From positions 1-44,736 of the IMG/VR virus record IMGVR_UViG_3300009537_000036: a stretch of DNA of 44,736 nt, one strand, 5' to 3'. The notes under the pieces were generated by a model. It did no database searches, was not told the DNA's origin, and worked only from the letters and a program-made list of their open reading frames with translations. This DNA is from a virus. Of the stretch, positions 25,355 through 44,023 are shown in pieces. The translations under genes were made by a program, and so were the position numbers. How positions within the stretch are numbered: position 1 is the stretch's first letter; every line of letters begins with the position of its first letter.

Positions 25355-26230
25355 ATGGCTACACTGGAAGAGATCCTCCAATCAGTCAAGATTCTACAAA
25401 GGAGAATAGAGGAACTACCTTATCGTATTGAAATCTCCCCAAATCAAGTGAAGATCATCAACGGCCTGTCCGATATTGATAACCGACTAGGCTTAATGCA
25501 AGCTGGAGAGTTTCGCTCTGGAAATGGAGTCACACCTGGAGACGGGTTCAGTGGTGTTCGTATTGCCTATCCAGGTCTAACCTACGATAGTAAGGTGTAC
25601 AACATCGTAGGTGTTGATAACGACACACTGATGGTCGGCATCGGAGCCACCGACGGCATATTTTACGGTGGCGGCGGACTAGTACAAATTGATAAAGATG
25701 GACTGTTCATTGCTAACTCCTACCAGCAAGGTATACGTTTTCCAAACGACGCGGGACTCGCCACAACTGAGGATGGAGGGAACATATACATGAGCAGCAA
25801 TGATGTATTCTACTTCATTCACAGAGATGCCACCGGACAAGTTCAGCTGCAGGTAGGACCAGATACATCGACATCAGAGGGAGCAGTGCTCAATCTGAAG
25901 ATGTACCAGGATGTGTTCTCTGGAGATACTGGCACTCCACTGCCTGGGCTGGATCTGTCTCCGGGATTTGGAGGAGGGGCACGAATCAGCATGGGGAGCG
26001 AGGTCCAACTACATGCACAGGGTACTACCAGAGGGTACACAGGTATACGTCTCAAGGGAAGCTCCGATCCCGCACCAGAAGAGGCAGACACTGGACACAT
26101 ATCAATGTACCTCAGAAACGGAAACCTAGTGGTGCAGTGGTACGATGGTGGTGCGGCCCAATTCAGGTATAAGTATTTGGCTCTAGACAGCTCCGGTTCT
26201 GCCTGGAGCGAATCAACAGATGCATTATAA
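25355..26230 (+). CDS. Tail fibre/spike-like protein with N-terminal coiled coil
   Basis: This 291-residue protein opens with a short coiled coil (EEILQSVKILQRRIEELPYR) typical of trimeric fibres, then a Gly/Asp/Ser-rich beta region, and ends with a GHISMYLRNGNLVVQWYDGG segment and a KYLAL strand that I recognise as a common tail-fibre terminal module. It probably binds the host surface or links receptor-binding parts to the tail. Its stop overlaps the next gene's start (TAATG). Confidence 0.7.
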   Translation: MATLEEILQSVKILQRRIEELPYRIEISPNQVKIINGLSDIDNRLGLMQAGEFRSGNGVTPGDGFSGVRIAYPGLTYDSKVYNIVGVDNDTLMVGIGATDGIFYGGGGLVQIDKDGLFIANSYQQGIRFPNDAGLATTEDGGNIYMSSNDVFYFIHRDATGQVQLQVGPDTSTSEGAVLNLKMYQDVFSGDTGTPLPGLDLSPGFGGGARISMGSEVQLHAQGTTRGYTGIRLKGSSDPAPEEADTGHISMYLRNGNLVVQWYDGGAAQFRYKYLALDSSGSAWSESTDAL

Positions 26231-26796
26231 TGCCATACTATCCACCACCCCCAATACCTGCACCGATACGCTGGTCTAATCTGTTGCACATGGTGTCACC
26301 AGAGTATCTTAGAGCCCTATCCGATGAAGGGTCTTACTACCTGGCATCTACCCCGGTGAGAATGGAAGACATAGGTAAGGGACATAATGCATCATATTCG
26401 CCCGGCGGGAAAGACCTACGCGGTCGTGGCTCAGTGCGGGTCTCGCCTAATCAGAAGAGAGTTCCATCCCACTTAGGACTGCATGAGGGTATCCATGCAT
26501 GGGATTTCCGGTCTGGCGGAAGTTGGCTGGAAAACCAATCGAGGTCACAGTTGGCATCTTCTGTTCTTGCCAACCTTCCACTAGCCGCCAAGCGCCAACT
26601 GTACCACAGGTACTATGTGGATGGGCAAATGTCACCACTGCCCGGTCTGCAAAGGTTTCCAGAGGTGGAGATGTTCGCCACTGGCGGAATGTATGGGCCG
26701 GAAGGTATACCCGTGGGCATGGAAGATCTGTATAGGGGATTCTATACAGACAAAGCACTGCAACGTGCAATCTGGAATAGGACACATGGAAGATAA
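26230..26796 (+). CDS. HExxH metallopeptidase-like protein in fibre cassette
   Basis: This 188-residue protein has a zincin motif HEGIH at residues 85-89 within HLGLHEGIHAWDF, and a downstream FPEVEMFATGG segment (Glu145/Glu147) that could supply the third zinc ligand, as in gluzincin-type domains. The N-terminus is Pro/Tyr-rich with no signal peptide or membrane segment. Sitting between a fibre gene and another structural gene and coupled by TAATG, it may be a virion-borne peptidase that trims virion or host surface proteins. Activity is not proven; short HExxH matches can be chance, but the helix context and second Glu support it. Confidence 0.6.
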   Translation: MPYYPPPPIPAPIRWSNLLHMVSPEYLRALSDEGSYYLASTPVRMEDIGKGHNASYSPGGKDLRGRGSVRVSPNQKRVPSHLGLHEGIHAWDFRSGGSWLENQSRSQLASSVLANLPLAAKRQLYHRYYVDGQMSPLPGLQRFPEVEMFATGGMYGPEGIPVGMEDLYRGFYTDKALQRAIWNRTHGR

Positions 26797-28799: not shown

Positions 28800-28991
28800 G
28801 TGCTTACAGACGAAGAAATCAAGTTCATCATGGTTGTGCTCAGCAGGGGCAGGTATGGCGGCACGCCACAAGAGATGGCGGACTACCTTGCCATGTACTC
28901 CCAAGTGATGAACAAGCTGGACAGTATGCTGAAGTCTCCAATCCCGCCGGACGAAGTGGAGCAATCAGAGTTTCCATGGAGTGAAGGCTAA
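28800..28991 (+). CDS. Small helical protein upstream of lysin, unknown
   Basis: This 63-residue protein uses a GTG start behind an AAGGAG site (28789-28794). It is helical and amphipathic with a basic segment (LSRGRYGG) and an acidic C-terminus (PDEVEQSEFPWSEG). The stop overlaps the lysin start (TAATG), so it belongs to the lysis operon by position. I assign no function. Confidence 0.55.
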   Translation: MLTDEEIKFIMVVLSRGRYGGTPQEMADYLAMYSQVMNKLDSMLKSPIPPDEVEQSEFPWSEG

Positions 28992-29692
28992 TGGTTATCA
29001 TCCCAGATGTAAGTCATTGGCAGGGCAGCATCTCCTGGGGCCAGATGGTTGCAGCGGGAGCGAAGGGCGTTATCGTGCGGGCTGGATCCATCACTGACGC
29101 TACTGGCGAATTGTACACGGACTACAAGTGGGAAGTCAACAGCATCGAAGCCCCTAAGCACTTGCCCATGGGTGCGTATTGGTACTTCCGCCCCAAATAT
29201 AGCGGGCTCGCACAGGCAGAGTACCTCTACAACCTTGTCAAGAAAGCTGACATCAAGCTCAAAGTGTACATTGATGTAGAGACAAGCGGTGTCAGCCAGA
29301 CTGTGGCACGTACCAGGATCAAAGCGTTCTTGGACTACTTGGAGAACAAACTTGGATACAAGCCTGGGATCTACACGTCAGCGAGCAAGTGGAATGTGAT
29401 CGTGGGGAATGTGAGTTGGGCTAGGGAATACGACCTGTGGGATGCACACTACACAGTGACGCAGATCAAGCCTTACATTCCATGGGGATGGTCAGACTAT
29501 GTTTTGTGGCAGTACACAGCGAAGGGACCCGGTGCTACTTATGGCGTGTCGAGCGCATCCATTGATCTAAATAGGTTCAACGGTTCTGAGGACGACTTCC
29601 GCCGACACTTTGGTCTAGGTCATGCGGCAACGATAGAAGAGCGCATCGAAAATCTAGAGAAATGGGCCAGGACTTTGGGCTATGGCGGATAA
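28991..29692 (+). CDS. Endolysin, glycoside hydrolase family 25 muramidase
   Basis: This 233-residue protein fits GH25 lysozymes, which cut the beta-1,4 bond between N-acetylmuramic acid and N-acetylglucosamine in peptidoglycan. It has the opening IPDVSHWQG with catalytic-site Asp6, GVIVRAG, GAYWYFRP, and YIDVET with the Asp95-x-Glu97 pair, then PGIYTSASKWN and a YVLWQYTAKGPG closing strand. No signal peptide is seen, so release needs a holin. The short C-terminus (about 215-233) is a charged helix rather than a recognisable wall-binding repeat. The next gene is probably its holin partner. Confidence 0.92.
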   Translation: MVIIPDVSHWQGSISWGQMVAAGAKGVIVRAGSITDATGELYTDYKWEVNSIEAPKHLPMGAYWYFRPKYSGLAQAEYLYNLVKKADIKLKVYIDVETSGVSQTVARTRIKAFLDYLENKLGYKPGIYTSASKWNVIVGNVSWAREYDLWDAHYTVTQIKPYIPWGWSDYVLWQYTAKGPGATYGVSSASIDLNRFNGSEDDFRRHFGLGHAATIEERIENLEKWARTLGYGG

Positions 29693-40670: not shown

Positions 40671-41399
40671 TTACTCCTCGTCTTCGTCTTGCGTAACCTT
40701 CTCCGTCCTTGGCTTGATCTTGGTCGGCACCAGCCCAGGGGCTAGAGTGGATAGGGATGCGAGCTTACCTTCCTCAATATAACCCTGGAAGATAGCGTCC
40801 TTCTCAACCAAGAATGCTTGAAGGTTGGGGAGAACATTCTCGGGGTCATACGGCACGCTGTCTACTGCGAAGTCACAACCAGCTGCCTTGAGGAAGGACT
40901 CAAGAGTAGTAACACTCTTAGTCGATCCAATCCAACCCACCTCATTCCCCTCTCGCGGGGTGAAGATGTAGTCCAAGAACCACCCCACCTGCAGACCCTC
41001 GTAGTCTCCAGACACAATCTCACACATCGCTGTGAACTGGAGCTTGTCTCGGGCGAACCCCTTGCGTGTCTTGCCTTTGGCATCCACCCACTTGAAAGGT
41101 CCACCCTTCTTCAAGCGTGGCTCGGGGACACCGTCATCATCTGTAGGGACAAACGAAGCGAACCGCATGAGGTGCGATCCCTCCCACGGTCCGATGCCCT
41201 TCAGTCCCATCTCATCTGGGGTCAGCCGAAAGAAAATGGGCTTCTCATAGATAACATCTAGATACTCTGGGATATCTTCCTTTGCAATGGGGTAGACATC
41301 GCCAGTCTCAGATGCGATTTTCAGACCAGTGCTGGTCTTGTGTGCTACACCCTTACCCTTGGGTCCGGTAGGGTTCTTTACTTCTCCAACCATGGGCAT
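40671..41399 (-). CDS. Single-stranded DNA-binding-like protein
   Basis: This 242-residue protein is first in the replication operon, behind AGGAGA. A beta-rich core (KLQFTAMCEIVSGDYEGLQVGW, VTTLESFLKAAG) looks like OB-type binding proteins of DUF669/SSB-like phage families, and the C-terminus is acidic (KVTQDEDEE) as in SSB tails that recruit partners. It would coat single-stranded DNA for the primase and polymerase. The OB fold is inferred from layout rather than from a firm motif. Confidence 0.6.
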   Translation of the reverse strand: MPMVGEVKNPTGPKGKGVAHKTSTGLKIASETGDVYPIAKEDIPEYLDVIYEKPIFFRLTPDEMGLKGIGPWEGSHLMRFASFVPTDDDGVPEPRLKKGGPFKWVDAKGKTRKGFARDKLQFTAMCEIVSGDYEGLQVGWFLDYIFTPREGNEVGWIGSTKSVTTLESFLKAAGCDFAVDSVPYDPENVLPNLQAFLVEKDAIFQGYIEEGKLASLSTLAPGLVPTKIKPRTEKVTQDEDEE

Positions 41400-41442: not shown

Positions 41443-41532
41443 TGTCAAGTGATATATAGGCTATATGTGTATAGGCGTGACCTCCCATGGATTAGGCTAC
41501 CCTCATACTATCACAGATTTGGAGATTGTCAA
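41443..41532 (-). promoter_or_regulatory. Promoter region of the replication operon
   Basis: On the minus strand TTGACA (41527-41532, perfect), a 16-base spacer and TAGTAT (41505-41510) with an upstream TG (extended -10) precede the SSB-like gene. A second TTGACA lies at 41443-41448, closer to the gene. Between them is an AT-rich stretch with the odd palindrome ATATAGGCTATAT (41454-41466). This 129-base gap holds no gene; it may also carry an operator or replication start signals. Confidence 0.5.
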
Positions 41533-41864
41533 GCCTGAAAGAACATCCGAAGAACAACTAGCGCATCACGTAGTTGGGCTAGGGTCGGCTCTCCAACAGG
41601 AGGGCTGGGATTGTCTGAAGGGATGGGATCCACTCCATGGTACTCCGGCCATGAGATTGACTTCACCCATGACATCTTGTACCACTTCTCGGTGTAGTCC
41701 GGGTTCCCAGAGGGCAGGTTTGAAAGCAGCCAGACGCCCTTCTCCTCCCGATCCTTGACTTCTAGTGCAATGAACTCCACCCCTGGCTGCTCTAGGGGGT
41801 GTTCATGCTCCCCATCTCCGGGGCGTGCCTTGGGCTCACATGGGACAACAGTAATGTACGGCAT
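41529..41864 (-). CDS. Unknown protein in exported-protein operon
   Basis: This 111-residue protein starts one base after the metallopeptidase stop with AAGGAG nine bases upstream. It is Pro/Glu-rich with a beta strand core (ITVVPCEPKA, VEFIALEVKD, KGVWLLSNLP) and a hydrophobic helix at the C-terminus (LAQLRDALVVLRMFF). There is no signal peptide. Its coupling to the peptidase suggests a shared role, but no family is recognised. Confidence 0.6.
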   Translation of the reverse strand: MPYITVVPCEPKARPGDGEHEHPLEQPGVEFIALEVKDREEKGVWLLSNLPSGNPDYTEKWYKMSWVKSISWPEYHGVDPIPSDNPSPPVGEPTLAQLRDALVVLRMFFQA

Positions 41865-41865
41865 G

Positions 41866-43575
41866 TTACTCTACTCCTTGATATGATTCTATTACGCGGC
41901 GTTTTAAGATGGCAAGGCCCTTCCTAGTCGGCCATTCCACAAGCAGGAACAGAGCAAATACCCAAACAGCTCCGGGGAAAAGGCGCATCCATCCATCTGG
42001 ACGGAGGTCCTGGCGAGCGATGGTGCAGTCCCTGTTGGCACATAGACCAGCCGGTTCATGTGCCTGCAAGTTCAATGGTGCAAGCAAGTCCTTCCATTCC
42101 TCTTTGGGCCACTCGAATGTGCGTGGGACCATGACAAACACAGCGGTGTAAGGCCCTCCCATAAATGCTAGATTGATCTCATTGAAGTCACTCGTAGTAG
42201 CCCCTCGCCACGTTGGGTGCATATTCCAGTAGACATCATATATCATAATCATCAATGGTGAGTATTGATACTTCCACCAGACATTGAAGAAGTAAGAGTT
42301 GTTGGTCTCCCAATACTCTCTTCCATCCACAGAGGAGTACAAGCTGCCCAAAGCTTCAATCCTAGTTTCAGCATAAGCGTCGGCCTCTCCCTTCACGATG
42401 GCTATATCTACATGAGCATAGGTTGGACCAAAGAGAGTACGAAGTATGCTCATGAGCCACGGTTGGGGGCCAAAGAGATCAATCAGTCTCGATGTCTTGT
42501 AGTGAATGCCATTCTGTTGAATGGAATGGTACAGACGAATGCTCTCATTGGTAATGGCAAAGCTGTCCTGTGTTACTTTTATCTCACGGTGATAGTATGG
42601 ATTCCCTTTGAACCAATTTAAGATAGCACCTATCACGTCATCTCGGTAGAAGTAGAATTCTGCGGGCTCCCATCCTGGATCGATAATCGGATTCACTCGA
42701 TAGTAGCGGTCAGATAGTTCACCCACATCTAGGGCATTCAAGTAGGACATGGGCTCCAGTCCGGTGCCAAATTGTGCTCGAAAGGCTGCAGAGAACAGGG
42801 CCAGCATCCGAAGGTGGTCATAGAGAGCGGCCTCGGCTCCTGGCACACCATCTTCTGCCATGAGGCGAAGAACCTCCGAAGTGAGTGCCTGATTGATGGT
42901 CTCTTGGTCCCACCGACCCATCATGCCTGGGTCAAGGGTGATAGCCAGGGCACCGTGGACCATTTCATGAGTCAGAGTTCCCATGAATGACTCATCCCCC
43001 CTGGTCTTTGTGCGCCTCATCTCTGGGAGATTGATGTGAATGCGGTTGTCGTTGATGTACTGTTGATTCTCATCACGGATGACTTCCTTGTTTTCGTCCA
43101 GCTTGACTCGTGCCCAATGAGCAAGTTCGGAATCATAGCGGGTTGCGCCTTTGAGATCTGGGGTAAAGAATTCCAATCCATTGTATTCAAAGTCAACAAG
43201 AAATGGACCACTCAGCTTCTTGATGTAGGTAATGATGACCTGGGCCATAGCCTCGGTCTCTTCCTCGGTGATAGGGTTATGCAATGCATCAGCATCTACT
43301 TCTGCATCAAAGAGCTTGTCATAGTAGAGAGCCATATCCAGAAACTGTTGTGTGGTTGGTCTACCCCACGAGGCATTAGTGAGACGGACGTTCAGGCGGG
43401 GGTCAATCCAATAGATACCCGGCTTCAAGAGATAGGGCAAGAGAAGATTATTTTGGAGCGTCCCCACGGAGACTTGAGCCGTGGCGTTGGCTGGAACTCG
43501 AACGATACCAGCACCTGTATAAGAAACAACAGCTACCAGGGCCAGATACAGCAGTTTCTTCGCAAAGGTTTTCAT
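41866..43575 (-). CDS. Membrane-anchored extracytoplasmic zinc metallopeptidase
   Basis: This 569-residue protein has an N-terminal signal or anchor (about 8-24), a long extracytoplasmic part with LTHEMVHGAL (HEMVH at 203-207, zincin active site), later Glu residues (Glu234, Glu241) that could be the third ligand, and a C-terminal membrane span (about 532-548) with a basic tail. This fits a protease outside the cytoplasm held by its C-terminus. Only two Cys occur, at 512 and 517, near the membrane. It is coupled to the upstream thioredoxin lipoprotein (ATGA). It is in the early arm, so it may alter host surface proteins, for example in exclusion; this is inference. Confidence 0.72.
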   Translation of the reverse strand: MKTFAKKLLYLALVAVVSYTGAGIVRVPANATAQVSVGTLQNNLLLPYLLKPGIYWIDPRLNVRLTNASWGRPTTQQFLDMALYYDKLFDAEVDADALHNPITEEETEAMAQVIITYIKKLSGPFLVDFEYNGLEFFTPDLKGATRYDSELAHWARVKLDENKEVIRDENQQYINDNRIHINLPEMRRTKTRGDESFMGTLTHEMVHGALAITLDPGMMGRWDQETINQALTSEVLRLMAEDGVPGAEAALYDHLRMLALFSAAFRAQFGTGLEPMSYLNALDVGELSDRYYRVNPIIDPGWEPAEFYFYRDDVIGAILNWFKGNPYYHREIKVTQDSFAITNESIRLYHSIQQNGIHYKTSRLIDLFGPQPWLMSILRTLFGPTYAHVDIAIVKGEADAYAETRIEALGSLYSSVDGREYWETNNSYFFNVWWKYQYSPLMIMIYDVYWNMHPTWRGATTSDFNEINLAFMGGPYTAVFVMVPRTFEWPKEEWKDLLAPLNLQAHEPAGLCANRDCTIARQDLRPDGWMRLFPGAVWVFALFLLVEWPTRKGLAILKRRVIESYQGVE

Positions 43576-43988
43576 GGCTCACTCTCTATCAACAATCGGA
43601 TTTGGGCAGGCGATATATAGCCCAGCCTTTGAGCCACGAGTCGCCCATACTTCCATACTTCGGTGAGAGGAACTCCCACAGCGGGAAGCTTGCCTCTCTC
43701 TACTGGGAACTTATATCCCCTATCCTCTACAACTCGGGTAATTTCTGCCGGAGAATCAGATACATTCACAGTAGTGATACCGATGCCTTGGGCAAGCCAA
43801 GCATCGTAAACATCATTAAGCTCATCCAGCTCAGCCTTACAATATTGACAGGAGACAGTCCAGTAGACCCTCACCACAATTCCAGATGGGGACTTGTCCT
43901 GGGAGCAGGACCCCAAAGTAACCAGCAAGGCCAACAGCACCACTCGGTATATGGGGTATGCCAGTTTGTTTGCCAGCCATGGGCGCAT
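43572..43988 (-). CDS. Exported TlpA/ResA-like thioredoxin lipoprotein
   Basis: This 138-residue protein has a lipoprotein signal peptide (basic N-terminus, hydrophobic VVLLALLVTLGSC, lipobox Cys28) and a thioredoxin-fold domain with a VYWTVSCQYCKAELDEL motif (Cys47-x-x-Cys50), then GIGITTVNVSD and a LPAVGVPLTEVW region with the cis-Pro-like part. It should act on disulphides at the outer face of the membrane. Its TGA overlaps the metallopeptidase ATG. No ribosome binding site is seen at 43988, but a -10 box lies five bases upstream, so the mRNA may be leaderless. Confidence 0.8.
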   Translation of the reverse strand: MRPWLANKLAYPIYRVVLLALLVTLGSCSQDKSPSGIVVRVYWTVSCQYCKAELDELNDVYDAWLAQGIGITTVNVSDSPAEITRVVEDRGYKFPVERGKLPAVGVPLTEVWKYGRLVAQRLGYISPAQIRLLIESEP

Positions 43989-43993
43989 GGTCT

Positions 43994-44023
43994 ATTATGT
44001 CAATTCCAGGCCCACTTAGTCAA
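43994..44023 (-). promoter_or_regulatory. Promoter for exported thioredoxin/peptidase operon
   Basis: On the minus strand TTGACT (44018-44023), an 18-base spacer and CATAAT (43994-43999) place the transcription start at or near the ATG at 43988. A TTGACATAA element (43995-44003) overlaps the -10 box, and another TTGACA lies at 44030-44035. Confidence 0.55.

Follow-up and report, generated by a model that had tools for sequence, protein, structure and literature searches.

An overlapping gene pair encoding a thioredoxin lipoprotein and a zincin-like membrane protein, both predicted to be exported, in the early arm of an uncultured phage

A phage known solely from metagenomic data and represented by a sequence of 44,736 bases (the window, which is IMG/VR virus record IMGVR_UViG_3300009537_000036; the record carries no completeness estimate) encodes, at the far end of its minus-strand replication arm, a 138-aa thioredoxin lipoprotein and a 569-aa zincin-like membrane protein, which are both predicted to be exported and to be held at the outer side of the cytoplasmic membrane (Table 1). 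The gene pair is genuine and out of the ordinary, though a single case from one phage. It is best read as a swappable accessory cassette that would act on the host envelope. A fuller explanation, in which the redox lipoprotein of this early-arm cassette serves the cysteine pair C512-C517 of the zincin-like protein, is tentatively preferred here, at somewhat less than an even chance. Searches of the literature found no description of a phage system made of a thioredoxin lipoprotein and a metallopeptidase, nor of a phage in which a protease-like protein is exported along with a thiol-disulfide enzyme. Should the two proteins act as a unit, this would show that phages alter the host envelope through controlled proteolysis on the outer side of the membrane.

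Genome context and expression of the gene pair

The plus strand of the window encodes the terminase, a major head protein (phrog_1357), a 3,015-aa protein and a GH25 endolysin, and the minus-strand arm encodes a DnaB-like helicase, a primase, a DNA polymerase, a UvsX-like recombinase and a RuvC-like resolvase. No tRNA genes were found in the 44,736 bases. The named relatives of the capsid and terminase proteins, which belong to Streptomyces, Bacillus and Paenibacillus phages, are all distant. The host is likely to be of the monoderm type, as suggested by the GH25 endolysin, by the lack of any lipoprotein resembling an o-spanin and by the Gram-positive best matches of the TlpA-like protein.

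A sequence-only reading of this DNA had described the two genes as an operon in the early arm, away from the lysis genes. The genes and their coordinates were confirmed, both on the minus strand, and their position in the replication arm, with the endolysin gene on the plus strand, agrees with that description. Both genes are intact, and the codon usage of each resembles that of the other genes of this phage and beats that of the alternative frames. The ATGA overlap by which they are joined is also present and supports translational coupling, and the peptidase-like gene has an internal start with a poor Shine-Dalgarno sequence. Among about 50 genes of the window, only these two have the N-termini of classical exported proteins, and the hydrophobic N-terminal segments found elsewhere are those of holin-like proteins or of small membrane proteins.

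The same reading had assigned the pair a promoter of its own. A promoter-like site is indeed located upstream of the lipoprotein gene; however, the scan found 5 such sites against 3.6 +/- 1.7 expected, which is not above chance, and this one ends only 5 nt before the ATG, so that the mRNA would be nearly leaderless. The lipoprotein gene has no Shine-Dalgarno sequence, unlike most of its neighbours. A gene for a 111-aa protein, which starts 1 nt past the stop codon of the peptidase-like gene, may be the third gene of the operon; its product had no match in Pfam or PADLOC.

Table 1. Features of the gene pair and of other genes mentioned in the text (positions in the window)
Feature	Positions	Strand	Remarks
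Lipoprotein gene	43572..43988	minus	138 aa; TlpA/ResA-type thioredoxin fold; predicted to be exported
Lipobox LGSC, residues 25-28	43905..43916	minus	from sequence; lipidation expected on Cys28
CQYC redox motif, residues 47-50, followed by Glu53	43839..43850	minus	from sequence
cis-Proline Pro107, preceded by Val106	43668..43670	minus	matches the cis-Pro loop of cellular TlpA proteins in the alignment
ATGA stop/start overlap, CCATGAAA	43572..43575	minus	joins the lipoprotein and peptidase-like genes
Zincin-like membrane protein gene	41866..43575	minus	569 aa; N-terminal signal and C-terminal span; no recognisable family
Predicted Sec signal peptide, residues 1-33	43477..43575	minus	hydropathy and AxA site; candidate cleavage ATA/Q after residue 33
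HEMVH, residues 203-207	42955..42969	minus	extended zincin motif; inside TLTHEMVHGA (200-209)
C512-x4-C517	42025..42042	minus	sole cysteines of the 569-aa protein; just outside the C-terminal span
C-terminal membrane span, residues ~528-547	41935..41994	minus	hydropathy and charge; basic tail behind
Promoter-like site TTGACT-18-CATAAT with TG	43994..44023	minus	start point would fall at the lipoprotein ATG
111-aa protein gene	41529..41864	minus	good Shine-Dalgarno AAGGAG
SSB-like gene	40671-41399		end of the conserved early block
GH25 endolysin gene	28991-29692	plus	
Second HExxH protein gene	26230-26796		188 aa; HEGIH at residue 85

The thioredoxin lipoprotein

The product of the first gene is a TlpA/ResA-type thiol-disulfide lipoprotein, predicted to be exported and anchored to the membrane. 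The lipobox and the C-x-x-C motif that had been noticed in it are both there (LGSC28 and CQYC47-50), and the assignment to TlpA/ResA proteins is strengthened by Glu53, by the cis-Pro loop and by a match to the Pfam family AhpC-TSA (PF00578) above the curated cut-off (31.7 bits against 26, E 1.6e-7). The whole thioredoxin fold can be aligned with TlpA proteins of Actinomycetota and Bacillota, and Val106-Pro107 with the corresponding loops in three TlpA-family proteins from cells. The PDB search returned ResA (best E 3.9e-5), and the best matches in plasmids by tblastn were four Gram-positive proteins annotated as 'TlpA disulfide reductase family', with 30-39% identity. A CxxC motif alone arises in 3.9% of shuffles, and the single-sequence AlphaFold model of the lipoprotein had a pLDDT of 37. 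A glutamate three residues past the CXXC is a feature of ResA and CcmG proteins (PMC5909903), and a valine before the cis-proline is typical of disulfide-making enzymes and is found in CcmG too (PMC5909903), so that the redox direction of the lipoprotein cannot be read from its sequence.

With the cellular TlpA, ResA and CcmG proteins (PF00578) the phage lipoprotein has in common the thioredoxin fold, the CXXC motif, the glutamate three residues on, the cis-Pro loop, a central insert and predicted membrane anchoring outside the cytoplasm. It differs from them in being shorter, in lacking the usual N-terminal beta-hairpin, a region which cellular TlpA proteins possess, and in having no CcdA or cytochrome gene adjoining its own. 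The missing hairpin indicates a shortened TlpA-like protein, not ResA proper, and the score against NCBIfam PRK03147 (35.5 bits, cut-off 170) did not place it within ResA. As only about 8 residues separate Cys28 from the core strand, the redox domain would sit directly on the membrane. Some of the nearest cellular TlpA relatives are encoded beside their redox partner CcdA, thus a TlpA gene that overlaps the gene of its partner has a precedent.

MT835553.1, the best match to the thioredoxin among 'phage' sequences, was rejected as evidence for a phage pair, since it is a bacterial-looking fragment. Although labelled 'Bacteriophage sp.', it carries genes for a P-type ATPase and for DsbA-like, VKOR-like, TlpA and CcdA proteins in the stretch read, and looks like mislabelled bacterial DNA.

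The zincin-like membrane protein

The N-terminal signal, the HEMVH motif and the C-terminal span reported for the second gene were recovered by hydropathy and motif analysis, and the tail past the span contains 5 K/R against 2 D/E. The sequence signals present in each protein are consistent with the claim that both are exported and tethered to the membrane. The further claim, that the 569-aa protein is a zinc metallopeptidase, was supported in part. HEMVH is embedded in an extended zincin motif that corresponds to the consensus abXHEbbHbc and arises in 6 of 20,000 shuffles (a bare HExxH does so in 1.5%), and the catalytic stretch gave three sub-threshold Pfam matches, to SprT-like, BSP and MPTase-PolyVal proteins (best E 0.13), all of them zincins aligned on the motif. 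However, no family, relative or structure added to this: the whole protein had no significant match in Pfam, PHROG, NCBIfam or PDB, and its single-sequence AlphaFold model had a pLDDT of 32. From the motif, we infer zinc binding and proteolysis, and Glu397 (GEADAYAE at 396) is among the candidate third zinc ligands. The likeness to SprT-like, BSP and MPTase-PolyVal proteins consists of the motif and of weak local matches over the catalytic helix, which are far below the cut-off, whereas no match covers the remainder of the 569-aa protein, and the export signal and C-terminal span are extra features of the window protein.

The protein is an orphan, with no detectable relative in the collections searched. 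Scans of IMG/VR for close relatives, with both proteins of the pair and with the 91-aa catalytic stretch, found none, and tblastn with the peptidase gave no match among phages or plasmids. A scan of genome contigs and about 1,380 genome look-ups, taken from the phyla of four MAGs with distant terminases in their bins (two of the draws overlap), likewise brought up no relative, although an empty result of this kind proves little when there is no positive control. Several candidates were discarded: a match to an anti-restriction PHROG (E 0.028, residues 144-211) was at the level of the motif only, a degenerate DNA pattern for THEMVHG hit five loci in IMG/VR, all of unrelated proteins sharing the motif alone, and a single match at E 0.005 in the genome searches proved to be due to chance. 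Since the searches yielded no relative, no residue of the protein can be called conserved, neither those of HExxH nor the cysteines.

A second HExxH protein is encoded in the window after the tail genes and has no export signal. Small HExxH proteins are present in related phages too, along with HExxH motifs within the giant 3,000-aa protein.

Related phages and the early-arm slot

Relatives of the terminase were found in 46 IMG/VR contigs. The longest of these (G007, G011, G015 and the near-identical G032 and G034) share early-arm genes with the window, including those for DNA polymerase and primase. The SSB-like gene is common to the window and three of the longest relatives, and the conserved early block ends there, with nothing upstream of it shared with the relatives. 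Conserved adjacency of the two genes in related phages did not emerge, as neither was found in 49 records with related terminases or capsids, 44 of them viral. Many of these records are fragments, which makes the absence weak evidence, and the adjacency test itself is weak since a peptidase without relatives leaves nothing to score.

Other exported proteins are encoded in the early arms of the relatives. G015 encodes a 172-aa protein with a signal, a 206-aa protein with two spans and FtsH, and in G034 and G032 the gene of a protein with a signal and a C-terminal span overlaps a lipoprotein gene. What is encoded there differs from phage to phage, yet export is a recurring theme, as would be expected of an accessory slot with swappable contents. 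The pair points to the early-arm slot of this uncultured phage group as one to search for other envelope-acting proteins.

Proposed function and alternative explanations

The main addition to the account given by the sequence-only reading is the cysteine pair of the zincin-like protein. C512 and C517 lie 11-16 residues outside the C-terminal span, and two random positions would fall this close, within five residues of one another, in 1.7% of draws. With the redox domain about 8 residues from the lipid and the two cysteines by the span, the enzyme and its possible substrate would be on the same membrane surface. This geometry, together with the low chance of such closeness, is suggestive, though not decisive, evidence that the lipoprotein acts on C512-C517 of its neighbour.

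According to the preferred explanation, both proteins would reach the outer face of the host cytoplasmic membrane by means of their export signals, the thioredoxin being held by the lipid at Cys28 and the zincin-like protein by its C-terminal span, with the large domain outside. The lipoprotein might make, break or repair the C512-C517 disulfide, enabling the zincin to fold or switching it on, and the electrons might be given or taken by host proteins of the CcdA/DsbD type. The zincin would cleave a host envelope protein or an entering virion protein, and the outcome would be an altered cell surface during infection, for example the exclusion of competing phages. The position of the cassette is a variable part of the early arm, upstream of conserved genes (SSB-like, primase and helicase). 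Some exported phage lipoproteins are known to protect the cell that the phage has infected, and superinfection exclusion is a known function of phage lipoproteins outside the cytoplasmic membrane; such a role of the pair is plausible. A more specific version, a redox-controlled phage protease facing outwards, in which the lipoprotein sets the state of C512-C517 and so switches the orphan zincin on or off at the host surface, is considered unlikely; the literature searched describes no phage system built in this way.

The main competitor of the cassette is that two independent exported accessory genes (morons) lie side by side, the thioredoxin maintaining the disulfides of the host or of virions in general, and the zincin-like protein having an unrelated role outside the membrane. 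Related phages encode an assortment of exported proteins in this arm that are unrelated to each other, so neighbours need not cooperate, and conserved adjacency was not observed, but the ATGA overlap with its poor internal start, and the placement of the only two cysteines of the peptidase at the membrane surface of the thioredoxin, are harder to reconcile with independent genes, and this explanation is regarded as possible but doubtful. It is quite unlikely, on the other hand, that the 569-aa protein is not a protease at all but a structural or binding surface protein, folded by the thioredoxin, in which HExxH is a relic or an accident. Such a protein would be expected to match no peptidase family significantly, as was found, and there are no relatives on which conservation might be scored; the frequency of the bare motif in shuffles would also allow an accident, but the full ten-residue consensus fits, at a much rarer frequency, and the three weak Pfam matches of the catalytic stretch are all to zincins and all aligned on the motif.

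The pair might also help lysis or affect envelope integrity, by weakening envelope proteins or by adjusting the disulfides of lysis proteins late in infection. Exported, tethered and cysteine-bearing pairs of phage proteins are typical of spanins, whose disulfides rely on host Dsb enzymes (PMC6139136). The pair, however, is located in the replication arm, on the strand opposite to the GH25 endolysin gene, the endolysin itself contains no cysteine, a spanin would be unexpected in a monoderm host, and neither the sizes nor the motifs of the two proteins match those of spanins, all of which makes a function in lysis very improbable.

Comparison with known phage systems

The lipoprotein Ltp of Streptococcus thermophilus phage TP-J34 confers superinfection exclusion: it prevents the injection of DNA, and its expression comes from the lysogeny module (PMC3952083). 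The ltp gene adjoins a gene annotated as a putative metallo-proteinase, whose 122-aa product is repressor-associated (PMC3952083). The pair in the window is similar in its predicted layout: Ltp too is a lipoprotein of some 140 aa that is anchored outside the cytoplasmic membrane and has a putative metallo-proteinase gene beside its own, and a location at the outer surface of the host membrane, as for Ltp, would fit the 138-aa protein by its lipobox. The resemblance is architectural only. The window lipoprotein is thioredoxin-like; an Ltp-type family was not among the results of the Pfam, PHROGs and NCBIfam scans, and the PADLOC scan gave no match. Proteins like the 122-aa neighbour of Ltp are cytoplasmic and ImmA-like.

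Another point of comparison is IMGVR_UViG_3300025146_000021, in which the gene of a membrane-bound zinc protease, FtsH (M41), likewise lies upstream of the genes for the SSB-like protein, the primase and the helicase. FtsH has an AAA domain, is driven by ATP and faces the cytoplasm, whereas the window protein is predicted to face outwards, has no ATPase and is unrelated in sequence. The FtsH-like AAA/M41 membrane protease of this record (904 aa, L084:2342-5056) appears to contain an inserted intein, which carries a LAGLIDADG homing endonuclease, and M41 was found in one of the 24 related records searched. Exported early-arm proteins of related phages (L084:6698-7216 and L090:17471-18193, the latter also at G032:41824-42546), which belong to no Pfam family, have in common the motif CNxGxGNGSEGC after a Pro/Thr-rich stretch; the one in G034 and G032 is the protein with a C-terminal span whose gene overlaps a lipoprotein gene.
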